NCBI RefSeq assembly: GCF_002081825.1
Contig: NZ_MUKU01000009.1
Coordinates: forward strand, 62,001 to 126,000
Direction: 5' to 3'
DNA length: 64,000 nt
Source: Chromobacterium haemolyticum
Lineage (GTDB): Bacteria; Pseudomonadota; Gammaproteobacteria; Burkholderiales; Chromobacteriaceae
Shown: positions 14,552-56,921 of the stretch, in pieces
How the letters are laid out: each line of letters opens with the position of its first letter
Position numbering within the stretch: position 1 is the stretch's first letter
Notes under the pieces: model-generated
The model's input: the letters and a program-made list of their open reading frames with translations, nothing else
What the model was told of the DNA's origin: nothing
Database searches by the model: none
Made by a program: the position numbers and the translations under genes

Positions 14552-16306
14552 ATGCTGCACCAGTTGACCGTCAAGCAATAACTGCTGGCCGGCTTTGGCC
14601 TGCTGATCATTCTGATCGCCATCATCGTGGCGGTGGCGATGATGAAGTTGAACACCATAAGCGACAAAATCCGCGATGTGACCGAGGATCGCTATCCCAA
14701 GATCATCCTGGCCAACAAGATTCAGCGTCACCACGCTGGATGTGGGCCGCTCCATCCGCAACGCCATCATCGTGCAAACGCCGGAAGAAACTGAGACTCA
14801 TATCAAGAAGGTGGAGGAGTTCCGCGCCGCCAACGCGTCCAATCTGGATCAGATGGAAAAACTGCTGTCCACGCCCAAGGGGAAGGAGCTGTTCGACAAA
14901 CTCAAGACAGCTAGCGCCAATTTGGGCGGTCAGTTCGAGCCCTTGTACGCCTTGGCACGCGCCAATAAGAACGAGGAAGCCAAAACCTTTTTGATGAAAA
15001 CCTTTGCGCCGGCCAACAACATGTTTTTGAAGTCGCTGAAAGAGATGTCGGACTTTCAGGAAGACTTGATGCAAAAGTCGATTGAGGCCAGCAAAACCGC
15101 GCAAAGCGAGGCGGTGGCGGTGATCGCCTTGATCGCGGCGGTGGCGATTGCGATATTCATCGCCAATCTGGTGACGGTGCTGCAGCAGAAATCCGCGCAG
15201 CTGGTGCGCAATATCAAGCAGGGCGATTTGTCCGGCCACGATGAGCCGATTCCTGAGGCGCGCGACGAGGCCATCGCTATGGCCAAAGATATTCAGGAGA
15301 TGCGCCAGGGCCTGCGCGAGGTGGTGGCCAGCATCCAGAAAAACGCCAACGAAGTGTCCGACTCCGCTCACGAGCTGGCCAGCATGTCCGAGCAAGTGGC
15401 CCACGGCGCGCAGCGCCCGTCCGAGGCCACCTCGGAGACCGCCACCACCATCGAGGAGCTGACGGTCAGCATCAACCACGTGGCGGACAACTCCAACGAG
15501 GCTTCCCGCCAGGCGGCGATGGCCGGCGATCTGGCCTGCCGCGGCGGCCATGCGGTGAAGGCGTCGGTGGGCAATATCGAGACGGTGTCGTCCTCGGTGG
15601 CGGCCACATCAGACCAGATGAAGGGCCTGACTCAGGAGGTGCAGAAGATAGGCAATATCGTCACGGTGATCCGCGACGTGGCGGACCAAACCAACCTCCT
15701 GGCCTTGAATGCGGCGATCGAAGCGGCGCGCGCCGGCGAGATGGGCCGCGGCTTTGCGGTGGTGGCGGACGAGGTGCGCAAGTTGGCGGAACGCACCGCC
15801 AGTTCCGCTCAGGAAATCACTCAGAACCTGTTCAAAGTCTGCTGCGCTTCAGCGATACGGCGTTAAAAACAAGCTCAAAATGCTCATGTACCACTTGTAC
15901 ATTCCGCTTTTTCGCTTGTTTTCGCCTTGTCTCGCCCTCGCTCGCGAGACTTTGAACAGGCTCTCAGATGATCGGCTCCATCCAAGGCAGCGCCAACCGG
16001 GTGGTGGGCAGCATGGAGCAAAGCCTGTCCAGCGTGGGCACGGTGTCCGACGGCGCCAGCCAGGCCACCGACTCCATGCAGGAGATTGAAGGCAGCACTC
16101 ACTCCATCGTGCACTCCATCGGCAACATCACCAGCGCGCTGAGCGAACAGCGCACCGCCAGCCTGAACCTGGCGCAGAGCATGGAGCGGGTATCTCAGAT
16201 GGCGGAGGAAAACAGCGCCACGGTGGAAGAACTGGCCACCACCTCCAGCCAGGTCAACGCGCTGGCGCAAAACCTGCAGGGCGTGACCGCGCGCTTCCGT
16301 CTCTAA
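14552..16306 (+). pseudogene. Methyl-accepting chemotaxis protein gene, broken by a stop, a frameshift and a MITE
   Basis: The gene begins MLHQLTVKQ and immediately meets TAA (14579-14581), where related proteins have Lys, so a single base change is likely. TM1 follows (LLAGFGLLIILIAIIVAVAMM). The frame then shifts near 14725: one extra base in AAGATTCAGCGTC separates [12 protein letters not shown] from the preceding part. The periplasmic four-helix domain, TM2 and the signalling hairpin ([24 protein letters not shown] in the core) are intact. At 15820 a 138-bp element splits AQEITQ from MIGSIQGSANRV. The rest runs to 16306. Three independent lesions make it a genuine pseudogene. Confidence 0.9.
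15825..15962. mobile_element. MITE-like element inserted in the chemoreceptor gene, 5-bp target duplication CTCAG
   Basis: The element has terminal inverted repeats AACCTGTTCAAAGTCT and AGACTTTGAACAGGCT (one mismatch). CTCAG flanks it on both sides (15820-15824 and 15963-15967). Removing the element plus one CTCAG restores E-I-T-Q-M-I-G in frame, which fixes the boundaries. The interior carries the palindrome-like core ATGTACCACTTGTACAT shared with the other copies. It encodes no protein. Confidence 0.9.
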
Positions 16307-16345
16307 AAGCGGTTTCAAACGAGGCGGGCCCGCCCATCTCCGCGC

Positions 16346-16452
16346 TCAGTCGTACTGGGTGCCCTTCTGGATCAATTCCACCTTGTAACCGTCCGGGCCC
16401 TGCAAAAAGGCGATCACGGTGCGGCTGTGTTTCATCCGCTCCGCCTCGCGCG
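16346..16452 (-). pseudogene. 3' remnant of gloA (lactoylglutathione lyase)
   Basis: The minus strand reads REAERMKHSRTVIAFL followed by QGPDGYKVELIQKGTQYD and a stop at 16346. GPDGYKVELI holds the last metal-ligand Glu region of glyoxalase I. Only about 34 C-terminal residues remain; upstream the similarity stops abruptly at about 16452, where a fragment of another gene begins. It is non-functional and part of the decay zone next to the broken chemoreceptor gene. Confidence 0.7.
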
Positions 16453-16456
16453 CCCC

Positions 16457-16588
16457 CCTGTCGCCCAGGACTGGGGCCGCGGCTTCGCGCTGCCGGACCT
16501 GGCGATCAGCGATATTCACTGCATCTGGCGCAAGCAGCAGGAGTCGGCCCTGGTCGACGGTTTCATCCAGTCCATCGCCACGGATTAA
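16457..16588 (+). pseudogene. 3' remnant of a regulator gene, probably LysR-type
   Basis: The plus frame reads PVAQDWGRGFALPDLAIS then DIHCIWRKQQESALVDGFIQSIATD, with a TAA at 16586-16588. The style resembles the C-terminal end of a LysR-family effector domain, but the match is from memory and short. It starts directly at the gloA remnant and ends directly at a MITE-like end. This suggests a rearrangement scar rather than a gene. Confidence 0.4.
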
Positions 16589-16589
16589 A

Positions 16590-16672
16590 AGCCTGTTCAA
16601 TGCCTGCCACGCTAGCGCCTGCACCCGCTTTCCCCGCCATACGCCTAGTCTCGTTCTTGCCCGCGAGACTGC
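16590..16672. repeat. Degenerate MITE-like repeat
   Basis: It begins AGCCTGTTCAATGCCTGCC, close to the start of the partial copy at 30599. It ends with CGTTCTTGCCCGCGAGACT, a decayed version of the right arm (CTCTTGCTCGCGAGATCG) of the full elements. The interior is diverged. It directly follows the stop of the regulator remnant. Confidence 0.55.
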
Positions 16673-16825
16673 GCACCGGCGCAAAAAAACCACACCAGGC
16701 CGGGCAAGCGGGGAAACGGTATGGGCGCAATGAGCAAAAATCGCAATCGGCATAACATGATCTCGTCGTAAGGTCGGCCAGCCGGCATCCGTACGCCGGC
16801 CCTTCCTTTCACTTGGGACCCGATC

Positions 16826-18022
16826 ATGAAAACTCTTTTCGCCGCGCTTTCGCTCAGCCTGGCCGCAAGCAGTCCGGCCGTCCTCGCCCATGCCCATTCG
16901 GCGTATTCCCACGACAGCAACTTCAGCTACCGCCATCCCAAGTGGATGGGCCTGCTGGACGATGGCCTCACGGTCAGCCAGCTGTCGCTGCCCGGTACTC
17001 ACGACACCATGAGCCGCTACGGCGGCGACAGCGTCGCCACCCAAACCCTGCCCTTGCGCACCCAGCTGGACGCCGGCGTGCGCGCTTTCGATATCCGCCT
17101 GCGTTCCATAGCCAACAGCTTCGCCATCCATCACGGCCCGGTGTTCCAACAGGCGATGTTCGGCGATGTGCTCAACGACATGAGCGCCTTCCTTCGCGCC
17201 AACCCCAGCGAGACCCTCTTCGTCCGGGTCAAGGAAGAACACACGCCGGAAAACAGCTCAATGTCCTTCCAGCAGATTTTCGAGTCCTACTACAATCGCT
17301 ACAGCGGCTACATCGCCATTCCCGCCAGCAACAATCCCAGCTTGCGCGAGGTGCGCGGCAAAATCGTGTTCTTGCAGAACTTCTCCAGCAGCAAGCGTTA
17401 CGGCATTTCCTACGGCGCCTACAACATCCAGGACCAGTACAGCGTTTCCACCAACTGGGATTTGTACGGCAAATGGGAGAAGATCAAGGCCCACCTGAAC
17501 CAGGCCAATACGGGTCCGCGCGGCAACGGCTACATCAATTATCTGACCGCCTCCGGCGGCTCCTTTCCCTATTTCATCGCCAGCGGCCATTCCAATCCGG
17601 CTACCGGCGCGCCGCGGCTGGCCACCGGCCTGACAACCCCGGGCTGGAAAAACAGCTATCCTGATTTCCCTCGCGTCAATTGCTTCATCGGCATCTGCAC
17701 CATCGCCTTTGAAGGCAGCAATGTGCTGACCCAGGAATACATCCAGCGCCAGCGTCCGGCTTACGCGGGCATGGTGATGGCCGATTTTCCGGGGCCGGGG
17801 CTGATCGACACGCTGATCCAGCTCAATCTGAAAACCTGCAAACGCTGGAGCGCGGGCGACCGCGCCACCTTGGGCGACATCTACCGCTACGACAACCCCT
17901 ACTCCAAGACGGTGGACTATTTCCGCAGCCGCAAGAGCGGCGGCTATTGGTATTTCCCCACCAATCAGTCCAGCAACGGGGACTGGGAATACCTGGGCCA
18001 TGCCAGCGCCTGCCGCGATTGA
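16826..18022 (+). CDS. Secreted phosphatidylinositol-specific phospholipase C-like protein
   Basis: The 398-residue product has a signal peptide (MKTLFAALSLSLAASSPAVLA, cleavage near residue 21) and a PI-PLC X domain. The two catalytic His lie in LSLPGTHDTM and FAIHHGPVF. The general-acid/metal region is AGVRAFDIRLR. These match bacterial PI-PLC, which cleaves PI or GPI anchors without a Ca requirement. The enzyme is presumably exported and could act on host membranes. A short C-terminal region after residue 300 has further Cys (NCFIGIC, KTCKRW, SACRD) that may form disulfides. It is monocistronic; GGGACC precedes the start, so the ribosome-binding site is only moderate. Confidence 0.85.
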   Translation: MKTLFAALSLSLAASSPAVLAHAHSAYSHDSNFSYRHPKWMGLLDDGLTVSQLSLPGTHDTMSRYGGDSVATQTLPLRTQLDAGVRAFDIRLRSIANSFAIHHGPVFQQAMFGDVLNDMSAFLRANPSETLFVRVKEEHTPENSSMSFQQIFESYYNRYSGYIAIPASNNPSLREVRGKIVFLQNFSSSKRYGISYGAYNIQDQYSVSTNWDLYGKWEKIKAHLNQANTGPRGNGYINYLTASGGSFPYFIASGHSNPATGAPRLATGLTTPGWKNSYPDFPRVNCFIGICTIAFEGSNVLTQEYIQRQRPAYAGMVMADFPGPGLIDTLIQLNLKTCKRWSAGDRATLGDIYRYDNPYSKTVDYFRSRKSGGYWYFPTNQSSNGDWEYLGHASACRD

Positions 18023-18028
18023 CCGCGC

Positions 18029-18427
18029 TCAGCCGGGGCAAAGGGTTTCCTGCAAATGTCGCCAGCGCGGCGCCCCGGCCTCATCGTGTTCAAACACCGC
18101 GGTGGCAAGCCGCAGGCTGCTTAACCAGCCGCCCTGATATTGCGCTTCGCGATAAGCCACCGTCGCGCCGCCGGCGTGCCTGTCCAGCAGCGCCAGTTGA
18201 TCCACCACGATCTCCAGGCCTGGCTTGCCGCCGCCGGCTGCGGCGAACAGCCGCCGCAGCGCGTCTAGGTCCAATGGCGCGCCGCTGGGCGCCACCATGG
18301 TGAAGCGCGGCGAGAAACGCGCCATCAAGGCCGCCAGCGCGGCAGCGTCCACCGGGCCGGCAAACCATTGCCGGATGGCGATATGCGCGGCAATCACTTC
18401 TTCGAAATAAGGATTTTGGTCGGTCAT
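18029..18427 (-). CDS. NTF2-like (SnoaL/DUF4440-type) small protein
   Basis: The product is 132 residues (MTDQNPYFEEVIAAHIAIRQ...). It looks like the NTF2-like alpha+beta cone fold: an N-terminal helix followed by FSPRFTMVAPSGAPLDLDALRRLF and a C-terminal strand RWRHLQETLCPG. Such proteins bind small ligands or act as simple isomerases. Its ATG overlaps the stop of the DHA2 exporter gene, so the two are translationally coupled, possibly for handling a compound that is also exported. A much longer frame through this position is spurious. Confidence 0.75.
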   Translation of the reverse strand: MTDQNPYFEEVIAAHIAIRQWFAGPVDAAALAALMARFSPRFTMVAPSGAPLDLDALRRLFAAAGGGKPGLEIVVDQLALLDRHAGGATVAYREAQYQGGWLSSLRLATAVFEHDEAGAPRWRHLQETLCPG

Positions 18428-19818
18428 GACGTTTTCTCTGAGTGGGGGCGCCGCAGCAGGGCCAGCACAGTCGGGGTGTGGATGCGCAGCACGAAAACCG
18501 CCGGCGCCAGGGTCAGGCCGGCGGCGATGAAGAAACAGGCTTGGTAGACCTGGGCGGTGGCCGCCGGCGCGCCGCTGTAATGAGTCAGCGCGTTCAGCAG
18601 CAGGCTGATCACGGCCACGCCCAGGCCGAAACTGAACTGGCGGTTGATGTTCCACAGCGCGCTGGCCTGCCGCAGTTCCGGTTCCGCGACATCCAGAAAA
18701 GCCGCGCTTTGCGCCGCGCTGCTGCACAGGCTGCCGCCGAAGCCCATCAAGGCGTAAGCGGCGATCAGCGGCACCGGCGCGCTGGCGCCCAAGGCCAGCG
18801 CAACGATGCCGGCGCTCTGGAACAGCATGCCCAGCAGCAGCAGGGGCTTGGGGCCGCCATGGTTGAAACGGCCGCGGGTCAGGCTGATCGCCAGCGCGGA
18901 GGCCAGCGCCCAGGGCAGCATCAGGCCGCCGGCTGCGGCGGCGCTCAGCTTGAGCACCTCTTGCAGATAGAGCATGGCCGCCAGGCTGACGCCCATGAAC
19001 ACGCCGGGGACGAACAGATACACCAGCATGGCGGTGCGCAGCAGGCGCCCGCGCAACAGCGTCAGCTTCAGCGCCGGCTCGGCCTTGCCGGCGGCCGCCT
19101 GCGCGTAGCCGGCCAGCGCGGCGGCGGCCAATAACAGCGCGGCGAGCCCCCACGCCAGATGGCCGCTTTCGCCCAGCCAGGTCAAAGCCAGCAGCAGCGA
19201 GGCCATGCCGACGGCCAGCAAAGTCAGGCCGGACAGGTCCAGCGCCCCGCCCCGCGCCGGGGTCCGGTCTTCCGGCAGCCAGCGCGCCGCCAGCCATAGC
19301 GTCAGCAGGGCCAGCGGCACGCTGGCCAACAAGACCCAACGCCAGGACAAGGCGTCCACGATCACCCCGCCCAGCGCCGGCGACAGCGCCGGCACGATCA
19401 GCGCCACGCCCATGATCAGGGCGGTGAGCCGGGCGCGGAGCGCCGGCGGATAATGCCGGTAAACCATGGCCTGACCCACCGGGATCAGCAGGCCGCCGCC
19501 CAGGCCCTGCAGCGCGCGCCAGCCTATCAGCGCTTCGATGGACGGGGCCGCGCCCGCCAGCGCGGCCCCGGCGAGAAACAACGCCAGCGATCCCAGCAGC
19601 ACCCGCCGCTCGTCGTAAGCGCCGGCCAGCCACGTGCTGAGCGGAATCACCAGAGTCAGGCCCAGCATATAGGCGTTGCCCACCCAGGCCAGCTGCGCCA
19701 GCGACGCGCCCAGGCCGCGGCCGATGTCCGGATAGGCGACGCTGGCGATAAACATATTGATCAGGTCCAGCGCAAAGCCGAGCAGGTACACCAGGGTCAG
19801 TTTCGAACGAAGCGACAT
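18424..19818 (-). CDS. MFS exporter of the DHA2 (EmrB/QacA) type
   Basis: The 464-residue, roughly 14-TM transporter has DHA2 signatures: GNAYMLGLTLVIPLSTWLAG (motif A region), WRALQGLGGGLLIPVGQAMV (motif C-like) and a long second half. The family exports toxic organic compounds by proton antiport. It starts at 19818 and is divergent from a LysR-type regulator across a 109-bp region with a perfect palindrome. It is coupled to the downstream NTF2-like gene. Confidence 0.9.
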   Translation of the reverse strand: MSLRSKLTLVYLLGFALDLINMFIASVAYPDIGRGLGASLAQLAWVGNAYMLGLTLVIPLSTWLAGAYDERRVLLGSLALFLAGAALAGAAPSIEALIGWRALQGLGGGLLIPVGQAMVYRHYPPALRARLTALIMGVALIVPALSPALGGVIVDALSWRWVLLASVPLALLTLWLAARWLPEDRTPARGGALDLSGLTLLAVGMASLLLALTWLGESGHLAWGLAALLLAAAALAGYAQAAAGKAEPALKLTLLRGRLLRTAMLVYLFVPGVFMGVSLAAMLYLQEVLKLSAAAAGGLMLPWALASALAISLTRGRFNHGGPKPLLLLGMLFQSAGIVALALGASAPVPLIAAYALMGFGGSLCSSAAQSAAFLDVAEPELRQASALWNINRQFSFGLGVAVISLLLNALTHYSGAPAATAQVYQACFFIAAGLTLAPAVFVLRIHTPTVLALLRRPHSEKTS

Positions 19819-19893
19819 CGGCGCTCTCCACGGTAAAGCGGCCGAGTATAGACAGAGGGCGGCGCTGGAAATAGCGGCCGCCGCCGGCTAAAC

Positions 19894-19912
19894 TGTCAAA
19901 ATATTTTTGACA
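19894..19912. promoter_or_regulatory. Candidate LysR operator TGTCAAAA-TAT-TTTTGACA
   Basis: A perfect 8-bp inverted repeat with a 3-bp centre fits the T-N11-A LysR box. It lies in the divergent region between the DHA2 exporter and the LysR gene. It overlaps a possible TTG start at 19907 and therefore supports the later GTG start at 19928 for the regulator. Confidence 0.65.
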
Positions 19913-19927
19913 ATAACAGGCGATGCC

Positions 19928-20830: not shown

Positions 20831-20959
20831 CGCCGCCCTCGATTATCCCGGTCATTGCCAGCGGCGCGGACGCCGCGTCCACGCAGGCCTGCGCTGAACG
20901 GTGGGCAAAGCCGCGGCCTTGATGCAAAATATGCGCTTCACCCCCAATAAGCCACTCGA

Positions 20960-21205: not shown

Positions 21206-21590
21206 TCCGCCGCCCATATCCAAAGTTTCATTAGGAAATGAGCGCCTAGAAACAGCTCACACCCCTTCCGTTTGGACCAATTTCCAGATACCTCGAATCC
21301 GCTTCGCGGATGATGATTTAGGGCCGGTTCCGCCCGGCAAACGGAAAGGGAGATTTGCGCGGCCAAATCTCCCTTTACCCTAAAGGCCGCCCTGCAAGCC
21401 TGGCCTACGGCTTCCCGCCGGGACCCGTCAGGCCCGAGGCGCGGCTGAACTCGCAGCGCGCTAACGTCGCGCTGCTCGAACAAGCAGCCGCTTAAGACCT
21501 CGGGCCTGCCACCCGACGGCAGGCTTGAAGGGAGTTTGGGTGCCTCGAATACGCGGTTTCCTGCGTATCAAATAGATCGTGAACAGCTTA
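21206..21590. other. Highly structured intergenic region with nested inverted repeats
   Basis: This 385-bp gap contains a perfect 13-bp hairpin (AAAGGGAGATTTG at 21345-21357 with CAAATCTCCCTTT at 21364-21376). A larger repeat pairs CCCTTCCGTTTG (about 21264) with CAAACGGAAAGGG (about 21338-21350). A long-range pair joins GGCCCGAGG (21431-21439) and CCTCGGGCC (21498-21506). CCTCGAATCCGC near 21293 is echoed by CCTCGAATACGC near 21543. No convincing ORF. It could be a structured RNA, a double terminator or a mobile-element remnant. Confidence 0.5.
21574..21590. repeat. Solitary MITE end next to frdD stop
   Basis: On the minus strand the frdD stop TAA is followed by TAAGCTGTTCACGATCT. This is the terminal repeat (A[A/G]CCTGTTCACGATCT) of the element family preceded by its TAAG flank. 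The rest of the element is absent. Confidence 0.55.
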
Positions 21591-21956
21591 TTAGAACCCC
21601 ATCGCCAGCAACAGCCCCGCCGCCGCCAGCGTGCCCAGCGCCGCCACCCCATAGGTGCAGGCCTTGGCCAGCGGCCCGCCGTGGACGCCGACATCGTGCA
21701 GGCTGTGGTAGATGCGGTGCGCCGCGTGCCACAGCAGCAGGGCGATCAGGCCGAACAGCAGCGCCTTGCCGATCAGGCTTTGCGCCAGCGCCTGCAGCGT
21801 GGCGTAATCGGCGGCGCCGTCCGGCAGCCAGCCCAGCGGCGCGGCGATGCCGGTGATGAACACCAGCATCGGCCCGAACAAGGCGGCCAGCATGCCGCCG
21901 GCGCCAAACAAGCCCCAGAAGATGGGCGCGTGAGAACGTTTCAATCCCGGTTTCAT
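21591..21956 (-). CDS. frdD: Fumarate reductase membrane anchor subunit D
   Basis: The 121-residue product has three TM helices (GLFGAGGMLAALFGPMLVF, IGKALLFGLIALLLW, TYGVAALGTLAAAGLLL) and the conserved HAAHRIYHSLHD at the quinone/cytoplasmic side, as in E. coli FrdD. With FrdC it anchors the FrdAB catalytic domain to the inner membrane and delivers electrons from menaquinol. Its start overlaps the frdC stop (ATGA). It is the last gene of frdABCD. Confidence 0.92.
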   Translation of the reverse strand: MKPGLKRSHAPIFWGLFGAGGMLAALFGPMLVFITGIAAPLGWLPDGAADYATLQALAQSLIGKALLFGLIALLLWHAAHRIYHSLHDVGVHGGPLAKACTYGVAALGTLAAAGLLLAMGF

Positions 21957-26469: not shown

Positions 26470-26614
26470 AGAAGCTGTTTACGATCTCGCGAGCAAGAGC
26501 GAGACAAGGCGAAAACCGCTGAGAAAGCGGAATGTACATGTGGTATATGAGCATTTCGAGGGCGTATTCACCGTGTCAAGTTCCACAACGCGCAGCAGAT
26601 CGTGAACAGGTTCT
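26470..26614. mobile_element. MITE-like element, full length
   Basis: The ends are AGAAGCTGTTTACGATCTCG and AGATCGTGAACAGGTTCT in inverted orientation. The flanks are CTTAG (26467-26471) and CTCAG (26613-26617). The left arm contains GCGAGCAAGAGCGAGACAAGG and the core has TGTACATGTGGTATATGAGC. The right flank supplies the TGA stop of the GNAT gene on the minus strand. Confidence 0.85.
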
Positions 26615-27165
26615 CAGCCCTGCGCATCCGAATCGGTGACCAGCCGCGAGAACATCTTGAAATCGCCCGGCTCGCCTCGCACCTGACGATATGCGCGCAG
26701 CAGGCCCTCGTATTGGAAACCGCAGCCGCGCAGCAATTGCTCGGCGCGCCGGTTGCCCTCGCGCGACACCGCCTGCACCCGGTACAAGCGGCAGCCGGCA
26801 AACGCCCAAGCCGTAACCGCCTTGCAGGCCGCCAGCCCCAGGCCGCGCCCCCAATAGGCCGGCGCCAGGTCGAAATCCATTTCAGCGCTGCGGTCCGCCG
26901 GCCAGACGGCGTCAAAACCAATGGAACCGGCCAAGCATCCCAGATCATCATCCACAATGGCCAGCCGCAACGGCGCGCCCGGCTCATCGGAACGATAGGC
27001 CTGCACCAAGGGAGCCAGATCCGCAGCCGATTGCAGCTCCCAGCGCAGATGCTGCGCCACTTCCGGCAGGCGCAGATAACCGTACCAGTCAGGAATATCC
27101 AGCATTTCCATTGGACGCAGGCTGAAACCCTGCAAATCGATAGACGGCGGGGGGATCACATTCAT
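26614..27165 (-). CDS. GNAT-family N-acetyltransferase (RimJ/RimL type)
   Basis: The 183-residue product shows GNAT features: SLRPMEMLDIPDWYGYLRLPEV at the start, CLAGSIGFDAVW, and the acetyl-CoA loop WGRGLGLAACKAVTAWAF followed by RVQAVSREGNRRAEQLLRGCGF. RimJ/RimL-type enzymes acetylate N-termini or small molecules; the substrate here is unknown. I start at MNVIPPPSIDLQ (27165) because the upstream part of the frame is low-complexity. Its stop codon TGA lies in the CTGAG flank of a MITE copy. Confidence 0.8.
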   Translation of the reverse strand: MNVIPPPSIDLQGFSLRPMEMLDIPDWYGYLRLPEVAQHLRWELQSAADLAPLVQAYRSDEPGAPLRLAIVDDDLGCLAGSIGFDAVWPADRSAEMDFDLAPAYWGRGLGLAACKAVTAWAFAGCRLYRVQAVSREGNRRAEQLLRGCGFQYEGLLRAYRQVRGEPGDFKMFSRLVTDSDAQG

Positions 27166-27290
27166 CACGAGCACCAGAATGAGGCGACCGGCCCCCGCGC
27201 CTGCAAGCACAGTGGACCCGGCCGCGCTTTATTGTGTACGGCGAAAGACCGCACTCCATTCTAGAAGATAGCTCGCCAATAGAAAGCCTA

Positions 27291-27353
27291 TCTAGGCCCG
27301 CTCAAGGTCTCGCGAACAAGAGCGGGACTAGACGCAAACGGCTGAAGAAGCGG
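27291..27353. repeat. Half copy of the MITE-like element
   Basis: GGTCTCGCGAACAAGAGCGG followed by GACTAGACGCAAACGGCTGAAGAAGCGGAT matches the left arm of the full copies (ATCTCGCGAGCAAGAGCGAG, ACAAGGCGAAAAC...GAAAAAGCGGAAT) with several substitutions. The terminal CCTGTT is decayed and the right half is missing. It abuts the 3' end of the small membrane protein gene. Confidence 0.6.
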
Positions 27354-27354
27354 A

Positions 27355-27657: not shown

Positions 27658-27747
27658 CCATCCTTTCCCGTTGAACCGGCGGGCAGGCCGCCTGCTATTT
27701 AGCGATATAGCGCCGCGGCCAAGGGCCGGCAAAACCGGAAAACACTT

Positions 27748-27895
27748 AGAACCTGTTCTAAGAACCTGTTTACGATCTACTGCGCGTCAGCGATACGGCA
27801 TTGAAAACCCCTTCGAAATACTCATGTACTATGTACATTCCGCGTTCTCAGCTGTCTTCGCCTTGTCTCGCTCTCCTGGCGTGAAAGCTAGTCTT
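27748..27895. mobile_element. MITE-like element preceded by a remnant end
   Basis: CTTAG-AACCTGTT-CTAAG-AACCTGTTTACGATCT shows an 8-bp remnant of one copy directly abutting a second copy at 27763. The second copy runs through GCGATACGGCATTGAAAAC and the core ATGTACTATGTACATTCC to a decayed right end near 27895. The abutting CTNAG pattern repeats what is seen in the tandem copies at 56141-56421. Confidence 0.75.
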
Positions 27896-30154: not shown

Positions 30155-30562
30155 ATGATCTCCATTCGGGAAATTGATCATATCGTGCTGCGGGTCAGCA
30201 ACCTGGCCAAGATGGAGCGTTTTTACGGCGAGGTATTGGGCTGCACCGTGGAGCGTCGACGCGAGGACTTGGGGCTGGTGCAACTGCGCGCCGGTCATTC
30301 GCTGCTGGACCTAGTGCCGGTGGACGGGCCTCTGGGCCGGGAAGGCGGCCGCGCGCCGTCCGCGGAAGGCCGCAATCTGGATCACTTCTGCTTCCGCGTC
30401 GAGCCTTTCGACGAGGAGGCGATACGCGCCCACCTCGCAAGCCACGGCCTCAGCGCCGGGGAAACCGCCCAGCGCTACGGCGCCGAGGGCGACGGCCCCT
30501 CCTTGTACTTGCAGGACCCTGAGGGCAATGTCGTGGAGCTGAAAGGCCCGCCCTCCCCTTAG
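30155..30562 (+). CDS. VOC-family (glyoxalase/dioxygenase fold) metalloprotein
   Basis: The 135-residue protein has paired beta-alpha-beta-beta-beta motifs of the vicinal-oxygen-chelate family. Candidate metal ligands are His9 (EIDHIVLRV), His in LDHFCFRV and Glu in DPEGNVVELKGP. AAGGAA precedes the ATG. VOC proteins include glyoxalases, fosfomycin-resistance enzymes and dioxygenases; nothing here picks one. The TAG stop lies in the CTTAG flank of a truncated MITE copy. Confidence 0.8.
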   Translation: MISIREIDHIVLRVSNLAKMERFYGEVLGCTVERRREDLGLVQLRAGHSLLDLVPVDGPLGREGGRAPSAEGRNLDHFCFRVEPFDEEAIRAHLASHGLSAGETAQRYGAEGDGPSLYLQDPEGNVVELKGPPSP

Positions 30563-30790
30563 AACCTGTTTACGACCTGCTGCGCTGCGGCGATACCATA
30601 GAACCTGTTCAATGCCTGCCGCGCTTCCTGACGGCGCGGCGAGCACCGCTTCGGCCCTCTGAGCCGTCTCCGCGGCCGCAAAGCCTGGGCTCCAAGACCC
30701 CAAACCGCTGTTGAACCCGCCGTCACCGCGCCCGCCTTGGGCTGGGTCTTTAGGCTTTTGGGCCGCTCCGGCAAACATGGTCGGCGGCTT
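30563..30790. repeat. Truncated MITE copies after the VOC gene
   Basis: AACCTGTTTACGACCTGCTG and CGCTGCGGCGATAC (30563-30596) is the first quarter of an element. It is broken off and followed at once by a second end AGAACCTGTTCAATGCCTGCC (from 30599), the same variant as at 16590. The following 180 bp (CGGCGCGGCGAGCACCGC...) show no gene. Together with 30791-31000, which is AT-rich and empty, this forms a gap of about 490 bp. Confidence 0.6.
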
Positions 30791-48214: not shown

Positions 48215-48216
48215 CC

Positions 48217-50131: not shown

Positions 50132-52218
50132 ACGCTTTCACCCGACTGCTGGCCGACATCGGCCGCCACAAGATCGCCGCCCCGCTGTTTTTGCTGGCCA
50201 TACTGGCCATGGTGATGCTGCCGCTGCCGCCGATGGCGCTGGACATGCTGTTCACCTTCAACATCGTGCTAGCCATCATCGTCATCCTGGTCAGCGTCTC
50301 CGCCAAGCGGCCGCTGGACTTCTCCGCCTTCCCCACCATCATCCTGGCCACCACCCTGCTCAGGCTGTCGCTGAACGTGGCCTCCACCCGAGTGGTGCTG
50401 CTGCACGGCCATGAGGGCACTCACGCCGCCGGCCGGGTGATCGAGGCCTTCGGCCAGGTGGTGATAGGCGGCAATTTCGTTGTCGGCATGGTGGTGTTCG
50501 TCATCCTGATGATCATCAACTTCATGGTGGTGACCAAGGGCGCGGAACGGATCTCGGAAGTCTCCGCCCGCTTCACTCTGGACGCGCTGCCCGGCAAGCA
50601 GATGGCCATCGACGCCGACCTCAACGCCGGCCTGATCAACCAGGAGCAAGCACAGCAGCGCCGCCGCGACATCGCCACCGAGGCCGACTTCTACGGCGCG
50701 ATGGACGGCGCCTCCAAGTTCGTGCGCGGCGACGCCATCGCCGGCATCCTGATCCTGATCATCAATCTGTTCGGCGGCGTGGCCATCGGCGCGCTGATGC
50801 ACGGCCTGTCCGCCGGCGACGCCTTCCGCCAATACGCGCTGATGACCATAGGCGACGGCCTGGTGGCGCAGATCCCGGCACTGCTGCTGTCCTCCGCCGC
50901 CGCCATCATCGTCACCCGCATCAGCGACGACGGCGACATGCAGGAACAGGTGAGCAAGCAGATGCTGGCCTCCCCCACCGTGCTGATGAGCGCCGCCGGC
51001 ATGATGCTGGTGCTGGCCGCCATCCCCGGCATGCCCTGGCCCACCTTCCTCGGCTTCGCGCTGCTGCTGGGCTTCGTCGCCTGGCGGCTGCACCAACGAC
51101 AGCAAGTGCTGCCGAACCAGCCGGACCCGGCGCTGGCGAAAAGCGCGCTGGCCGGCGACGCCGACATCGAACTGGAATGGGGCGCCCTGCCCTATGTGGA
51201 CGCCCTGGGCGTCAACCTGGGCTACAAACTGGTGTCGCTGCTGGACAAGAGCCAGGGCGCGCCGCTGGCCAAGCGCGTGCGCGGCGTGCGCCAAAGCCTG
51301 AGCGAGAGCATGGGCGTGCTGATGCCGCAAGTGAATCTGCGCGACGATCTGCGCCTCAAGCCCTCGCAGTACGCCATCCTGCTCAGCGGCAACACCGTGG
51401 CCGAAGGCGAGGTCTACGCCGACCGGCTGATGGCCATCCCCTCGCCGGAACTGTACGGCGAAGTGGACGGCATGCCCGGCGTGGACCCGGCCTACGCCAT
51501 GCCGGTGACCTGGATTCTGCCGGACGACAAGAGCAAGGCGCTGGGCCTGGGCTACCAAGTCGTGGACTGCGCCAGCGTGGTGGCCACCCATCTGAATAAA
51601 GTGATGCGCGAGCATTTGTCCGAGTTGTTCCGCCACGACGACGTGGCCGCCATCAACGAACGGCTGTCCGCGCTGGCGCCCAAGCTCGCCTCCGCGCTGA
51701 ACCAGGCGCTGCCGGCGCCCTTGCAGCTCAAGGCCTACCGCCAACTGCTGACCGACAATGTGTCGCTGAAAGACATCGCCCCCATCGCCAACGCCCTGCT
51801 GGACGCCAGCGAAAGCAGCAAGGATCCCATCATGCTGGCGGCTGAAGTGCGTTGCGCGCTGAAGCGCCAGATCGTGCAGTCCATCCTGGGCCCGCGCGGC
51901 GAGATGAAGGCCTTCAACCTGTCCGCTGACCTGGAAAACCTGCTGCTGGGCGCTTTGAGCCAAGCGCAGCAAACCGGCAAGCCGCAGCTGGACAGCTTCC
52001 CCATCGACCCCAATGTGCTGCAGCAGCTGCAGGCCAATATGCCGGTGGTGCGCGACCAGATGAAGCAACTGGGCCACGCGCCCATCCTGCTGGTGATGCC
52101 GCAGATCCGCCCGCTGCTGGCGCGCTACGCGCGCTTGTTCGCGCCAGGCCTGCACGTGCTGTCCTACAACGAAGTGCCGGAGACCCGCGAAGTCAGCTTG
52201 ACCGGCACTCTGGGCTGA
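50128..52218 (+). CDS. flhA: Flagellar export protein FlhA
   Basis: The 696-residue product has about eight TM helices, the conserved FHIPEP-type cytoplasmic loop region (FVVTKGAERISEVSARFTLD, ALPGKQMAIDADLNAGLI) and a large C-terminal chaperone-docking domain (ILPDDKSKALGLGYQVVDCA). It is the last gene of the plus-strand flagellar set and the major export-gate component. Confidence 0.95.
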   Translation: MNAFTRLLADIGRHKIAAPLFLLAILAMVMLPLPPMALDMLFTFNIVLAIIVILVSVSAKRPLDFSAFPTIILATTLLRLSLNVASTRVVLLHGHEGTHAAGRVIEAFGQVVIGGNFVVGMVVFVILMIINFMVVTKGAERISEVSARFTLDALPGKQMAIDADLNAGLINQEQAQQRRRDIATEADFYGAMDGASKFVRGDAIAGILILIINLFGGVAIGALMHGLSAGDAFRQYALMTIGDGLVAQIPALLLSSAAAIIVTRISDDGDMQEQVSKQMLASPTVLMSAAGMMLVLAAIPGMPWPTFLGFALLLGFVAWRLHQRQQVLPNQPDPALAKSALAGDADIELEWGALPYVDALGVNLGYKLVSLLDKSQGAPLAKRVRGVRQSLSESMGVLMPQVNLRDDLRLKPSQYAILLSGNTVAEGEVYADRLMAIPSPELYGEVDGMPGVDPAYAMPVTWILPDDKSKALGLGYQVVDCASVVATHLNKVMREHLSELFRHDDVAAINERLSALAPKLASALNQALPAPLQLKAYRQLLTDNVSLKDIAPIANALLDASESSKDPIMLAAEVRCALKRQIVQSILGPRGEMKAFNLSADLENLLLGALSQAQQTGKPQLDSFPIDPNVLQQLQANMPVVRDQMKQLGHAPILLVMPQIRPLLARYARLFAPGLHVLSYNEVPETREVSLTGTLG

Positions 52219-52246
52219 TCCGCCGCCCCCAATCCCGCGGGGCGCC

Positions 52247-52270
52247 GCGGGCGCGCGTCGTCGCGCCCGC
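52247..52270 (+). terminator. GC-rich hairpin after flhA
   Basis: GCGGGCGCG-CGTCGT-CGCGCCCGC forms a 9-bp stem 29 bp after the flhA stop. No T tract follows, so termination efficiency is uncertain. Confidence 0.45.
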
Positions 52271-52689
52271 ACGCCCTTCGCATGATATGCGAAATTACAA
52301 CACCCCCACTCCTGCGCCCGCCGTCGCCTTCATTTCTTAAACATCCCCAAATAATCAATCCTCTAGCGGCTGAGATTCGGACATGACCCGCTAAGGCAGA
52401 GGCATAATCCAGCCCGGATCTGTACCAAGGAACAGGTTTCAATCTGTATGCCTAATTTTAAAATGAAAGCCTTTTTTGCATTTTCGGCGAAAACTTTTCG
52501 CAAATTTTGCAAAATCTGACTAATATCGGCTAAAACCTAAAGTAAAGCGTCGACGTGCCCGCCCCTGCCCGGAAGGCCATCCGCCTTCCGCTCGCCGCCG
52601 CCGATAATGAACAAAGACAGCAGCCCTCCGCCCGCGCCGGCGGCAAGCTGCGGACCAGAACGACCCGATAGTCGCCCTACTCCAAAGAC
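52271..52689. promoter_or_regulatory. Upstream region of the BetR-REC gene with tandem palindromes
   Basis: GCGAAAA-C-TTTTCGC (52487-52501) is a perfect palindrome, and GCAAA-T-TTTGC (52500-52510) overlaps its end. They lie about 190 bp before the regulator start in an AT-rich block. They are candidate operators for a dimeric HTH protein, perhaps the BetR-type regulator itself. No ORF is supported in this stretch. Confidence 0.4.
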
Positions 52690-53559
52690 ATGCAAATGAC
52701 ACAGAACAAGCCAACCACGGAAATCATCAACGCCAATATCCGCACCCATCTGGAGCAGCGCGGTCTGGCGGAGTCTCAACAGGTCAGCCTGATCGAAGAA
52801 GTGCTGGGCCTGAGCGCGTCGCAAACCTACCGCAAGCTCAACGGCAGCAGCCAGTGGCAGCTGGGTCAATTGGAGAAGCTGGCGCAATACCTGGGCCTGC
52901 CCACGTCCGAACTGCTGGTGTCGCAGGACAACCGCCGGCCGGTGCGGGTGCCGGACGCCGACCTGATCCCGGCCATCCTCCACCTGACCGACCACACCGA
53001 GGAAGCCCATTGCTGGATACAGCTGGGCGACGTGGTGCAGGACGATTCCATCTCGCCGCTCTTGCTGGCGCGTCGTCAGGGCGACAGCTGGCACGTGTAT
53101 CCGGGCAGCCACGACCGCTGCATCAACGGCCACGAAGTCACCTATCTGGCGGTACAGCCGCCCAAGCGCGCCAACAACAAGCGCTTGCTGGTGGCGGTGC
53201 TGGACGATATGGACGCCGACATCCTGGCCGCGGTGCTGGTGCGCCAGGGCCTGTTCGCCCTGCCCTACGAATCCCCGTCCGAACTGCTGGCCGCGCTGCC
53301 GCACGAGGAGTTCGACGCTTTCGTGCTGGACTGGGTGCTGGGCGACGAGGACTGCATGAAGGTCATCGAGACCATACGCCAGCGCTCGTCCACCGTGCCC
53401 ATCATCGTGCTGACCGGCCATGCGGAGGAATACGAATCCGCGCTGCAGCAGGCCTTACGCATTCAGGGCGTCTACTACATCGGCAAACCGACGCCGGGCT
53501 CCATTCTGGCGTTGCAGATCACCAATGTGGTCACCGCCGCCCACGATCTGGAAGTCTGA
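52690..53559 (+). CDS. BetR-type HTH protein with C-terminal response-regulator receiver domain
   Basis: The product is 289 residues. The N-terminal 70 residues form a Cro/C1-like HTH of BetR type (ANIRTHLEQRGLAESQQVSL; LGLSASQTYRKLNGSSQWQL). Residues about 165-285 are a receiver domain with the acidic pair (VAVLDDMDAD), phospho-acceptor Asp (FDAFVLDWVLGDED), Thr in IIVLTGH and Lys in YYIGKPTPG. DNA binding at the front and REC at the back is the reverse of common response regulators. It converges on a hybrid histidine kinase 220 bp away, a possible partner. The stop TGA lies in the CTGAG flank of a MITE copy. Confidence 0.82.
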   Translation: MQMTQNKPTTEIINANIRTHLEQRGLAESQQVSLIEEVLGLSASQTYRKLNGSSQWQLGQLEKLAQYLGLPTSELLVSQDNRRPVRVPDADLIPAILHLTDHTEEAHCWIQLGDVVQDDSISPLLLARRQGDSWHVYPGSHDRCINGHEVTYLAVQPPKRANNKRLLVAVLDDMDADILAAVLVRQGLFALPYESPSELLAALPHEEFDAFVLDWVLGDEDCMKVIETIRQRSSTVPIIVLTGHAEEYESALQQALRIQGVYYIGKPTPGSILALQITNVVTAAHDLEV

Positions 53560-53710
53560 GAACCTGTTTACGATCTGCTCCGCTACTGCGCTGCGGCGAT
53601 ACAGCGTTGAAACCAAGCTCAAAAATGCTCATGTACCACGTGTACATTCCGCTTTTTCGCTCGTTTTCGCCTTGTCTCGCCTTGGCTCGCGAGATGTTGA
53701 ATAGGCAGCT
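53559..53710. mobile_element. MITE-like element after the BetR-REC gene
   Basis: It begins AGAACCTGTTTACGATCTGC directly at the stop codon (flank CTGAG, 53556-53560). It runs through GCGATACAGCGTTGAAACC and the core ATGTACCACGTGTACATTCC. The right end (GAGATGTTGAATAGGCAGCT) is decayed. About 150 bp. Confidence 0.8.
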
Positions 53711-53737
53711 GTTCACTATCGCCGCGGCGCGGCATTG

Positions 53738-53770
53738 AAAAAGCCCTGGAGGACATCCAGGGCTTTTTTG
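53738..53770. terminator. Bidirectional rho-independent terminator between BetR-REC and the kinase
   Basis: The stem AAAAGCCCTGGA/TCCAGGGCTTTT has a GGACA loop, T tract on the plus strand (TTTTTTG) and T run on the minus strand. It lies between two convergent genes, 12 bp beyond the kinase stop. Confidence 0.85.
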
Positions 53771-53781
53771 CGCGACGCGGG

Positions 53782-55584
53782 TCAAGCCCGCTTGCTGACC
53801 ACGGTCAACATCTGCCGCAATTGACCGGCGTCGAAGGGCTTGGCCAGGATGCCGGCGAAGCGGCTCGCGCGCGGATCGTCAAAGGCCTCCGGATAAGCGC
53901 TCATCCCAACGACGGCGGTATGCTCGGCGCGCAGGCCGTTCCAGGCCCGCTCCGCCACCTGGTAGCCGCTGTCCGCGCCCAGATGCATATCCAGCAGCAC
54001 GGCGTCGAAATCGGCTTGCTCCAGCGCCCGTTCCGCCAAGGCCGCCGTCTCCGCGGTGGCCACCTGATAGCCGTCGCGCTGCAGCAACTCGGCCAGAGTG
54101 TCGCGAATGTCGGCGTCGTCGTCCACGATCAACACCGATTGCGAGCCCGGCGTCTCCGCCGCCTGCACCGGTATGCGCACGGTGAAGCAGGCGCCCTTGC
54201 CCTCGGCGCTGTCCAGCGCTATGCAGCCGCCAAACAGATTGACCAGCTCCTTGACGATGGACAGGCCCAGCCCGCAGCTGCCGGCGCGTCTATGCTTGCC
54301 CTGGATGAAAGGCTGAAAAATACGCTGCTGGTACTCCAGCGGAATGCCCACCCCGGTGTCGCGCACTTGCAGCACCAGCTCGTGATGGCCGGTGGCGCGC
54401 AGGCAAGACACGCTGACCGTGACCGTGCCGCTATCGGTGTAGCGGATGGCGTTGGACACCAGATTGCCCACGACCTGACGCAGCCTGACCTCGTCCAGCA
54501 GCACCGTCGCCGGCAGCGGCCCGGCCTGGTAATTCAGCGCCAGGCCCTTGGCGTCGGCCAAGGGCCGCATCACATCCATGGTGGCTTGCAACACCTCGGC
54601 CAGCGGCATCGGTTGCGGATTCATCCGCAGCTTCATATTGCGGATGGCGCTGATGTCCATGATGTCGTGCACCTGGGCGGATAAATGCGACACGCTGGTT
54701 TTCAAGCGCTGCAAGGCGGTGCGCGCGGTTTTCTGGCCGTCCGCCACCGGCTCCAGCAATTCGATGCAAACCTGCATCGACTGCAAGGGGGAACGGATCT
54801 CGTGGCTCAACGTGGCCAGGAAGGTGGTGCGGTCCAGCTCCATCGCCACCGTGGCCTGGTGCGCGGACTGCTCCTTCTCTAGCAAGGCCTGCTTGGCGCT
54901 GGCCAGACGCTTGACCGAGCTATAGCGCGACAGCAGCAAAATCACGGCGCAGATCACGCCCCACAACACCGACTGCAGATACAGCACATTGCTGCGCTGT
55001 CGGTCCAGATCCTCCAGCCGCTCGGTGCGGCTTTTGACCTCCGCCACCCTCGCCTCCACCGCGAAAGCCATCAGTTGCGGCCGCAGCAGGTCGATGCGCT
55101 CCAACAGCGCCGGCACCGAGGCCAGCGCAGGATGGCTAAAAGCGGGATCGTTGAATAATTGCTGGTAATCCACCACCAGGGTGTCGAAACCCTTCACCTG
55201 GCGCAGCAACATCTGCACCCGCACCGGCGCCGGTTCGGAAAACACATGAAAACGGCTGCTGGCCACTTCCAAGCGCCGCAACAGCTCGTCTTGCTTGATG
55301 CGGCCGGCCTGGAAACCCACCAGCGCGGACTTGGCGCGCTCCATTTCCAGCTGGAATTGCGCCACCGACCAATACAAATCCTCGCTGCTGTTGGCCACTG
55401 AATTGACCTTGCCCAGCTGGCTGATGCTGTAATACATGCCGCCGGCGGCGGTGATCAGCACCAGCAGGCCCACCCATAGCATGCGCCGGCCTTCCGGCCA
55501 GCCGCCCCAGCCGGAAACCAGCCCCCGCAGGCGGCCGGCCCAGCCCGGCTCTACGCCGGATGACGCTTGATTGTCCTGGTTCAT
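53782..55584 (-). CDS. Hybrid sensor histidine kinase with C-terminal receiver domain
   Basis: The product is 600 residues. Two TM helices (LWVGLLVLITAAGGMYYSIS; LYLQSVLWGVICAVILLLS) enclose a periplasmic helical sensor region of about 150 residues. Then come the H-box (TFLATLSHEIRSPLQSMQV, His phospho-site), N-box (VVGNLVSNAIRYTDSG), G-boxes (DTGVGIP; CGLGLSIV) and a receiver domain (VLIVDDDADIRD, LLDMHLGADSGY, LAKPF). The ATG overlaps the stop of the upstream periplasmic SUOX-like gene, so that protein is the likely input module. Its output partner may be the BetR-REC protein facing it. Confidence 0.92.
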   Translation of the reverse strand: MNQDNQASSGVEPGWAGRLRGLVSGWGGWPEGRRMLWVGLLVLITAAGGMYYSISQLGKVNSVANSSEDLYWSVAQFQLEMERAKSALVGFQAGRIKQDELLRRLEVASSRFHVFSEPAPVRVQMLLRQVKGFDTLVVDYQQLFNDPAFSHPALASVPALLERIDLLRPQLMAFAVEARVAEVKSRTERLEDLDRQRSNVLYLQSVLWGVICAVILLLSRYSSVKRLASAKQALLEKEQSAHQATVAMELDRTTFLATLSHEIRSPLQSMQVCIELLEPVADGQKTARTALQRLKTSVSHLSAQVHDIMDISAIRNMKLRMNPQPMPLAEVLQATMDVMRPLADAKGLALNYQAGPLPATVLLDEVRLRQVVGNLVSNAIRYTDSGTVTVSVSCLRATGHHELVLQVRDTGVGIPLEYQQRIFQPFIQGKHRRAGSCGLGLSIVKELVNLFGGCIALDSAEGKGACFTVRIPVQAAETPGSQSVLIVDDDADIRDTLAELLQRDGYQVATAETAALAERALEQADFDAVLLDMHLGADSGYQVAERAWNGLRAEHTAVVGMSAYPEAFDDPRASRFAGILAKPFDAGQLRQMLTVVSKRA

Positions 55585-56072
55585 CAGTTCACCACCAGAC
55601 CGTCAATCTGCCAGATCAGCTTGGCGTCCAAGGCCGGCCCCTTGGCCGAATCCGGCATCTGCTCCAGCGGATACATCAGCCACAACGGGCCGTAACGGGC
55701 TACGTTCATCGGCTGCTGGTTGAAGCGGCGGGCCAGGATGGCGCGGTACTTGACCAACTCGCCGATAGGAATGGAATAGGTATAGTCGTTGAGCGCCACA
55801 AACTGGGCCTGATGGCCGTAGGCGCCCACTTTATTGAGGATGTCCCGCACCAGCGGCCCGCTGAAAGTGGCCTTGGGCGTCCAGCTGGTGGCGGTGACCA
55901 GCGAGGTTTGAGGCAAGGCCATCAGCGCGCTTTCGCGGAATTCGTACACGCTGCGCGCCGAATCGGTGAAATGACTGATCTTGCCCGACACCACCAGCAA
56001 AACCGGGTCGTCGCCCGCCCGGCACGCTTGCGCCAGCAGGACGAAAACCAGCAAGCAAAAGACTCTCTTCAT
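55584..56072 (-). CDS. Periplasmic protein with a molybdopterin-oxidoreductase (SUOX-like) fold, no Mo-ligand Cys
   Basis: The 162-residue product has a signal peptide (MKRVFCLLVFVLLAQACRAG) and a short oxidoreductase molybdopterin-binding-like domain: PVLLVVSGKISHF, SLVTATSWTPKATFSGPLVRD, ILNKVGAYGHQAQFVALNDY, TYSIPIGELVKY, YGPLWLMYPLEQ. In true sulfite-oxidase-type enzymes a Cys near the TSW position binds Mo; the mature protein here has no Cys at all. It is therefore probably a non-enzymatic ligand sensor. The ATGA overlap with the kinase gene supports a sensory partnership. Family call from motifs. Confidence 0.7.
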   Translation of the reverse strand: MKRVFCLLVFVLLAQACRAGDDPVLLVVSGKISHFTDSARSVYEFRESALMALPQTSLVTATSWTPKATFSGPLVRDILNKVGAYGHQAQFVALNDYTYSIPIGELVKYRAILARRFNQQPMNVARYGPLWLMYPLEQMPDSAKGPALDAKLIWQIDGLVVN

Positions 56073-56140
56073 CTTGGCCAACGCTTCACTTGATTGAAAA
56101 ACCATACCGCCGCACTGCTCATCAACAGTCAGACAACTAT

Positions 56141-56278
56141 AGAACCTGTTCACGATCTCGCGAGCTAAGGCGAGACAAGACGCCGCGGTGGAAATAGCGG
56201 ATTGCGCCGACGGCGCATGAGCGTTTCGAAAACACGCTCGCCATATCGGCAACGCTCAGCAGATTTTGAACAGGTTCT
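56141..56278. mobile_element. MITE-like element, first of a tandem pair
   Basis: It has ends AGAACCTGTTCACGATCTCG and AGATTTTGAACAGGTTCT, flanked by TATAG and CTAAG. The interior is diverged from the other copies (no GTACAC core), so it is probably an older insertion. It abuts the next copy in the same orientation, sharing a single CTAAG. Confidence 0.8.
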
Positions 56279-56279
56279 A

Positions 56280-56421
56280 AGAGCCTGTTCACGATCTCGC
56301 GAGCAAGAGCGAGACAAGGCGAAAACAAGCGAAAAAGCGGAATGTACACGTGGTACATGAGCATTTTGAGCTGGTTTTTAACGCCGTATCGCCGCAGCGC
56401 AGCAGATAGTGAACAGGTTCT
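56280..56421. mobile_element. MITE-like element, second of a tandem pair
   Basis: A well-preserved 142-bp copy: AGAGCCTGTTCACGATCTCG at the left, AATGTACACGTGGTACATGA in the core, CGCCGTATCGCCGCAGCGCA and AGATAGTGAACAGGTTCT at the right. Flanks CTAAG and CTAAA. Confidence 0.85.
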
Positions 56422-56519
56422 AAAAAAACGGCACGCTAGTCTGGTGCCGGTTCGCCGCCGAAAACGGCGCTGCCCGCGGGCGCTCCGTTTCAGCGGCAGG
56501 GGTCGGCCGCGGCCGGCTT

Positions 56520-56661
56520 AGCGCCTGTTTACGATCTCGCGAGCTAAGGCGAGACAAGGCGAAAACGAGCGAAAAAGCGGAATGTACAGGTGGTACATGA
56601 GCATTTTGAGCCGGTTTTCAACGCCGTATCGCCGACGCGCAGCAGATCGTAAACAGGTTCT
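56520..56661. mobile_element. MITE-like element ending at the acyl-CoA-binding protein stop
   Basis: A 142-bp copy: AGCGCCTGTTTACGATCTCG left, AATGTACAGGTGGTACATGA core, AGATCGTAAACAGGTTCT right. The left flank is CTTAG; the right flank CTTAC contains the TAA stop of the minus-strand gene. The 100 bp between this and the previous copy hold no gene. Confidence 0.85.
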
Positions 56662-56921
56662 TACTCTTCCAGCAGACGCTTCACCACGTCCACGTATTCC
56701 TGCTTCGCCTCGTCGCTGCCCTTGCCCTTCAGCTTTTCCCAGGCGTCGAACTTGGCGCGGTTGATGAAGTCCATCATGCCCGGGCGTTCGCCGGCGGCGT
56801 CGCCTTCGGTAGCCTGTTTGAACAGCGCGTACAGTTGCAACAGAGTCTGGTTGTCCGGACGCTCGGACAGGGTCTTGACATCGGCCTGGGCCTGGGTGAA
56901 CAGAGTCTGCAGATCAGACAT
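56661..56921 (-). CDS. Acyl-CoA-binding protein (ACBP)
   Basis: The 86-residue product spans the whole ACBP four-helix domain: QADVKTLSERPDNQTLLQLY (ligand Lys/Tyr region), ALFKQATEGDAAGERPGMMD, NRAKFDAWEKLKGKGSDEAK, QEYVDVVKRLLEE. The YALFKQATEGD and KFDAWEKLKG blocks are diagnostic. It would bind and buffer long-chain acyl-CoA esters. The protein is nearly universal in eukaryotes and scattered in bacteria. AAGGAA precedes the ATG at 56921. Its stop lies in a MITE flank. Confidence 0.92.
   Translation of the reverse strand: MSDLQTLFTQAQADVKTLSERPDNQTLLQLYALFKQATEGDAAGERPGMMDFINRAKFDAWEKLKGKGSDEAKQEYVDVVKRLLEE

Follow-up and report, generated by a model that had tools for sequence, protein, structure and literature searches.

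A miniature transposable element of Chromobacterium haemolyticum that often lies on stop codons and whose inner part recurs across the class under different ends

The window analyzed here is a stretch of 64 kb (65% G+C) from a 5.29-Mb draft genome of Chromobacterium haemolyticum (G000, 88 contigs). It carries copies of a short palindromic sequence without genes, which an initial annotation, made from the sequence letters alone, had described as a dispersed family resembling miniature inverted-repeat transposable elements (MITEs). In this study, we propose that these are MITEs of about 140 bp moved by an IS5-family-like transposase, that their insertions survive on stop codons and that they contain a core which is selected across the class (Gammaproteobacteria) and combined with exchangeable ends. 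We give this reading a probability of roughly 0.85.

Copies of the element

A hidden Markov model (HMM) built from 32 copies recovers, at E ≤ 1e-3, nine of the 11 places listed by the initial annotation: six near-complete elements, one without one end and two fragments. The two other places, at 16590 and 21574, scored weakly and may be remnants. The copies in the window are the following:

15824..15963, minus strand: full MITE copy with a TCA target-site duplication (TSD) on both sides (HMM; core found by covariance model)
16584..16688, minus strand: possible degenerate remnant, weak (HMM, E 0.0015)
21574..21598, minus strand: possible lone 25-bp end, weak (HMM, E 0.006)
26471..26613, plus strand: full MITE copy, flanks TTA and TCA (core by covariance model)
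27297..27354, plus strand: MITE fragment, left part (HMM)
27762..27883, minus strand: MITE copy without about 15 bases of the left end (HMM; core by covariance model)
30562..30596, minus strand: MITE fragment, right end (HMM)
53560..53706, minus strand: MITE copy with a degraded left end (HMM; core by covariance model)
56142..56277, plus strand: older MITE copy, also present in the related genome G001 (HMM; core by covariance model)
56281..56420, plus strand: full MITE copy in tandem with the 56142 copy, whose right-end TAA it occupies; missing in G001 (core by covariance model)
56298..56396, plus strand: conserved folded core of the 56281 copy (core alignment and covariance model)
56521..56660, plus strand: full MITE copy with TSD TTA (core by covariance model)

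Several of these copies meet the end of a gene. The right-flank TCA of the copy at 26471..26613 is the stop codon of the open reading frame (ORF) 26614..27210 on the minus strand, the 53560 copy is inserted on the TGA stop (53557-53559) of the plus-strand ORF 52690..53559, and the TTA duplication of the 56521 copy forms the stop codon of ORF 56661..57014 on the minus strand. Directly before the truncated 27762 copy, the window (27735-27790) holds a short element end, TTAGAACCTGTTCTAAGAACCTG, as if an element had been lost through deletion.

The median length is 140 bp (113 full copies), and the elements are gene-less with terminal inverted repeats in which on average 14.3 of the 17 end bases match. 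The palindromic structure reported initially is borne out by folding: the strand at 56281-56420 folds at -58.4 kcal/mol (z -6.6), and none of 200 shuffles equals it. The early estimate of hundreds of copies per genome also holds. With up to three mismatches, the left-end pattern matches 282 times in the whole genome and the reversed pattern not once; about ten of these matches may be ends of the source insertion sequence (IS) described below, as its right end fits at exactly three mismatches. A 400-kb sample outside the window yielded 26 HMM matches including fragments, which extrapolates to about 340 per genome; the window, with nine HMM places in 64 kb, is denser than this sample. No MITE match was obtained in six of 18 congeners, nor in 20 of 24 genomes that sample the order's other families. 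One genome from another family of the order (G057) gave 247 first-look MITE candidates and 13 scored matches.

Insertion site and likely source insertion sequence

Each insertion has the order C-TNA-[GARCCTGTT...AACAGGYTC]-TNA-G. The CTNAG named initially as the target is indeed the preferred insertion site, but the duplicated part within it is only the 3-bp TNA, since the outer G and C partly belong to the element. Identical 3-bp flanks occur in 39 of 60 distinct copies, compared to a mean of 14.8 and a maximum of 27 when the right flanks were permuted in 10,000 trials, and TNA stands at 104 of the 120 flanks. In a larger set of 113 full copies, picked in part via a full-query match or for a well-preserved left end, TNA is identical on both sides in 73.

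Empty sites in related genomes agree with this order. At the 56521-56660 site, the window reads GGC-TTA-element-TTA-CTCTTCC; G001, G014 and G005 have the uninterrupted GGC-TTA-CTCTTCC, the precise empty site sought in the initial annotation, and G002 has no element and a TCA instead of the TTA. The comparison that the initial annotation had named as a possible refutation thus came out in favour of duplicated targets. At the 53560 site, G005 and G002 are element-free with GTC-TGA-GCA kept, and G014 and G001 carry the element. The 26471 site is unusable as an empty site, both flanks lying about 1.5 to 3.3 kb apart in four relatives (judged from coordinates only).

Elements also insert into one another's targets. 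The window holds two tandem elements at 56142-56420; G001 has only the first one, followed directly by TAAAAAAA, so that the second must have used the TAA that closes the first as its target. Because the element starts with G and ends with C, each insertion leaves CTNAG on both sides, and elements can consequently insert beside each other and beside the IS. Element-TNA-element junctions were counted 27 times in G000, 25 in G001, 24 in G002, 10 in G005 and 19 in G014, and the reversed pattern gave none.

The transposase had been noted as absent from the window, and an IS with matching ends is located elsewhere in the same genome. This partner is about 850 bp long, IS5-family-like, and has the ends and the CTNAG target of the MITE. 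At its ends it carries sequences of the GAGCCTGTTCACGATCT type, with TNA alongside. When 23 IS loci were searched for the exact end, 21 ends could be read, all of which abut TNA, and at least nine of the 21 directly adjoin a MITE end. The N-terminal part of the transposase matches DUF4096 (PF13340, E 1.7e-21), and the genome contains matches to PF01609 (DDE_Tnp_1), among them an IS that is complete but degenerate (L031) and several others truncated at the ends of contigs. The MITE shares its ends with an autonomous element, whose GAGCCTGTTCACGATCT ends have TNA flanks in the same genome and of which an intact copy was not assembled. The draft breaks repeatedly at pieces of the partner IS (contig ends L038-L047 and L083-L104), as would be expected if the strain had several near-identical copies of it.

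Members of the IS1031 group have ends starting with GAG or GAA, a 3-bp TNA duplication and a DUF4096/DDE_Tnp_1 transposase. By these features, the partner IS may belong to this group of the IS5 family. In other species, IS ends were sought in 46 of 80 fetched loci and then in 70 of the 80; inverted ends with identical TNA flanks, both of which the search required, were present in 30 of the 70, which show the 3-bp TNA duplication of the group. A covariance model run over the 80 IS loci found only two weak cores; in other species, IS and core thus as a rule do not lie near each other. In the closed genome G005, which has 17 scored MITE matches and 354 first-look candidates, the N-terminal part of the transposase gave no match in either a DNA or a protein search; the MITEs there may have outlived their source, or may use another enzyme.

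Insertions on stop codons

In all four cases, the TNA of the target reads TAA or TGA on one strand. We assigned insertion sites to genes with a simple codon-usage gene caller on sites emptied in silico, which assigns 79% of the sequence to genes. Among 73 TSD-bearing insertions, 35 lie exactly on the stop codon of a gene, 34 are intergenic and four are in genes. The unoccupied CTNAG sites divide into 98 on stop codons, 417 intergenic (some of which fall in genes missed by the caller) and 828 coding. With matching by pentamer, the expectation for the 69 non-coding insertions is 9.4 on stop codons, compared to the 35 observed. Three sites are occupied by tandem pairs, and two of these sites are stop codons; counted by unique site, 33 of 70 are on a stop.

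A test independent of the gene caller, which compares three reading frames, agrees. The frame ending on the TNA is the longest in 43 of the 73 TSD-bearing copies of this genome, in 20 of 33 copies from three congeners and in 25 of 31 copies from ten genomes of other genera. In the copies from other genera another frame is often long too, the three frames reaching at least 100 codons in 25, 19 and 3 copies. At stop codons, the plus strand of the element runs against the gene in 27 of 35 cases here, in 16 of 19 in the congeners (some of whose sites may be common by descent) and in 8 of 25 in other genera. Since the orientation differs between genera, a single fixed transcript function is not supported.

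A core shared under different ends

Halomonas and Pseudomonas plasmid copies have the inner part of the element in common and differ in their ends. With an element of Pseudomonas veronii as query, 62 of the 274 genomes sampled from the class gave matches (the own genome included, and at least one match, in G188, covering an end only), in 52 of 222 genera. The inner part matched class-wide is about 80-100 bp long. A second class element, used as query, hit 38 of the 398 genomes sampled from the phylum, some of these hits being to the ends only. We read 78 loci for their ends: 63 gave an inverted repeat and 15 had no inverted repeat or no core anchor. Removal of 14 of the 63 as duplicates or doubtful left 49 cores, from which 33 were hand-picked for alignment. 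Ten end types were labelled by eye:

Type A: TNA-GARCCTGTTYACGATCT
Type B: YTAR-CAGGCTGTTGAAAAA
Type C: CTAG-CAGGCTGTGGATTTTC
Type D: CTAG-GAGGCTGTCCGAGAACT
Type E: YTAA-GGAGCCTCTGATTAAC
Type F: CTAGGCTCTGTCTGAAAAA-like
Type G: AGCGCTTTGCACGAA-like
Type H: TTAG-TTCTACTGYGTCACAAAGCG
Type J: CAATGCCTTCGCAGG
Type K: GAGCTGTATAAAATC-like

The mean core identity is 80.6% within end types and 77.7% between them. The best 16-base end identity falls from 83.7% within types to 54.8% between them, compared to 49.1% for shuffled ends; this fall is partly by construction, the types being defined by their ends, and what is telling is the near-constancy of core identity. In types E and H, the non-palindromic direct repeats CTAA and TTAG stand at both ends, so that the duplication lengthens from 3 bp to 4 bp along with the change of ends. 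Of the 49 loci from across the class that have an inverted repeat, 17 are bounded on both sides by an identical 4-bp YTAR. In nine of these 17, a gene frame ends on the repeat (longest of three, at least 60 codons); counted by sides this is 16 of 34 (p 0.07), which is only suggestive, and frames of at least 100 codons number 10, 4 and 1.

In a 400-kb sample of the own genome, all 20 cores lie in type-A elements, and no change of ends was seen inside this one genome. Scans of viral contigs found the type-B end in three contigs and the core in two, with no IS-sized pair of type-B ends in them, so that this search gave no transposase for end types other than A. Phage records gave no match for two elements, and E. 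coli genomes none to one core. A Pseudomonas aeruginosa plasmid (LT969519.1, locus L465) carries a type-B core with extra bases on both sides of the loop, which make a longer hairpin.

The alignment of the 33 hand-chosen cores was folded with RNAalifold, which predicts 30 pairs, 21 of them changed on both sides (covarying). Paired cells amount to 95.0%, compared to 79.8% in shuffles and 36-41% in controls slid along the alignment, and the covariation score is 0.438 versus 0.159 when shuffled, a value of 0.438 being reached by none of 500 shuffles. Since the alignment tested is also the one that gave the structure, the comparison with the slid versions is biased in its favour; the shuffles take no account of relatedness. 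Opposed unpaired columns are near-invariant (32 or 33 of 33): G38 A39 against G76 A77, and G46 and A48 against G67 A68. These GA/GA columns may form tandem sheared G.A pairs. On one strand, G.T cells exceed A.C cells by 33 to 14 (p 0.008, the cells being non-independent), a count that omits one conserved pair which is G.T in 27 of the 33 sequences. Between 52400 and 57200 of the window, a region with four copies, there are six terminator-like calls compared to 4.6 by chance, one of them inside a copy (56252-56238). At gathering score, Rfam gave no match in the window or in 20 core loci; looser thresholds brought up sX9 (19 bits) and otherwise only families with E above 1.

Discussion

The mechanism is probably that of an ordinary MITE whose likely source IS has been found. 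Matching ends, a matching target, TSDs, empty sites and IS copies in the same genome directly support the link between MITE and IS. The 17-bp ends of the MITE would be recognized in trans by the transposase of the IS (N-terminal DUF4096 and DDE_Tnp_1), which would insert at CTNAG, duplicate TNA and presumably transpose the MITE itself. Insertions in genes and promoters would be lost, while those on stop codons would be silent, because the duplicated TNA restores the stop, and may survive for that reason. What is unusual is the persistence of a folded core under different ends and the concentration on stop codons. This core, which is conserved throughout the class while attached to various transposon ends, may be selected for its single-stranded fold, as a transcribed 3'-end hairpin or a hairpin of single-stranded DNA, rather than serving as a mere linker. 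In its boldest form, namely a class-wide mobile hairpin with a fold-selected core of about 80-100 bp that is repeatedly re-equipped with IS5-like ends and accumulates on stop codons, we hold this idea tentatively, at slightly less than even odds.

Several observations weigh against our interpretation. Within 100 bp of a gene 3' end, stop codons account for 33 of 53 insertions when 26.2 (standard deviation 3.5) are expected. Full-length IS with enough flank have the TNA-ending frame as the longest in 12 of 26 insertions, and this frame reaches at least 100 codons in 2 of the 26; seven of the 26 come from one genome. The orientation at stop codons is inconsistent between genera, the end types were assigned by eye, and the share of TSDs among all copies is probably lower than 73 of 113. 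The source IS is present mainly as contig-end pieces, and the sole complete copy read is degenerate. Template switching in palindromes can also yield covariation; it should, however, not preserve fixed mismatches.

It is possible, though less likely, that the element is an ordinary MITE with a neutral interior, its core being common by descent or horizontal transfer and its ends having drifted with the local transposases. Indeed, several end types are broadly IS5-like, the YTAR and TNA targets are related, and the exclusively type-A cores of the own-genome sample show no end change within one genome. A mere filler would, however, not be expected to have near-invariant internal loops and 21 covarying pairs out of 30, nor to keep its identity between end types while the ends themselves diverge, even if the latter is partly by construction. 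We consider it unlikely that the hairpin has been domesticated as a regulatory element (a stabilizer of the 3' untranslated region, a terminator or a small RNA) and spreads because it is useful at gene 3' ends. Such a role would suit the placement at gene 3' ends, the strong fold and the excess of G.T over A.C with its non-independent cells, but the orientation to the gene is not conserved between genera, a third of the 18 congeners have no match, and the terminator-like calls hardly exceed expectation, with a single one inside a copy.

Less probable still is active targeting of stop codons, or of regions where translation terminates, by the transposase. Full-length IS copies have no stop-codon excess, near gene ends the excess of the MITE amounts to only 1.9 standard deviations, and selection against insertions in genes and promoters accounts for most of the pattern, even though 35 of 73 TSD-bearing copies lie on stop codons and genes end on the duplicated target at nine of the 17 YTAR loci. 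For the stop-codon excess we prefer survival, which fits better than targeting. A repeat of the REP/BIME or Correia kind, unrelated to a DDE transposase, would likewise be high in copy number, palindromic and mostly extragenic; the TNA duplications, the ends in common with a resident IS and the empty sites contradict it so directly that we give it hardly any credence.

MITEs are usually viewed as collapsed copies of one transposon whose interiors carry no meaning. The interior of this element has instead persisted longer than its ends, a hint that some part of it is under selection. This opens two questions to direct testing: what lets certain bacterial MITEs multiply to hundreds of copies, and whether a stop codon is a safe landing site through a duplicated target that restores it. 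Occupied and empty stop-codon sites in sister species provide a natural series for the effect of a 3'-end hairpin on expression.

Among known systems, REP and REPIN sequences are RAYT-linked palindromes of 20-30 bp without TSD. The present element was not identified with them, having TSDs and a unit of 140 bp (no search was aimed at RAYT genes). The Correia/NEMIS, RUP and YPAL repeats are, in the parts of the source considered, similar in being small, mobile and non-coding, and several of them have inverted ends and hairpins, but they differ by mostly TA ends and, for YPAL, duplications of 3 to 26 bp (PMC2229807). MITEAba12 resembles our element in being attributed to a co-resident IS with matching terminal inverted repeats (TIRs) and TSD length, and differs by a 9-bp TSD, a length of 111-114 bp and another sequence; the passages considered give 90 copies over about 30 genomes, 22 of them in one named strain (PMC6382973). 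The minus strand of the MITE at 56286-56358 weakly matches the Xanthomonas small RNA sX9 of Rfam (19 bits, E 0.12), far below the gathering score of 44 and hence a lead only; sX9 itself might be transcribed from a related element. Among the papers listed by searches of the open-access literature, some of which presumed a host genus, we recognized none on the family, the core, the exchange of ends or the placement on stop codons. The nearest described kind that we found is MITEPsy1 of Pseudomonas syringae, a gene-less element of 100 bp with 18-bp TIRs and a duplicated CTAG/YTAA target (PMC3189936). It has other ends and six copies in the genome studied, and the parts of that paper considered here do not mention a conserved core or stop-codon placement (PMC3189936). 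Like the MITE of the window, however, it is short and gene-less with TIRs and a probable IS5-family origin, being thought to derive from the IS5-family ISPsy2, and its authors suspected that similar sequences are widespread (PMC3189936).

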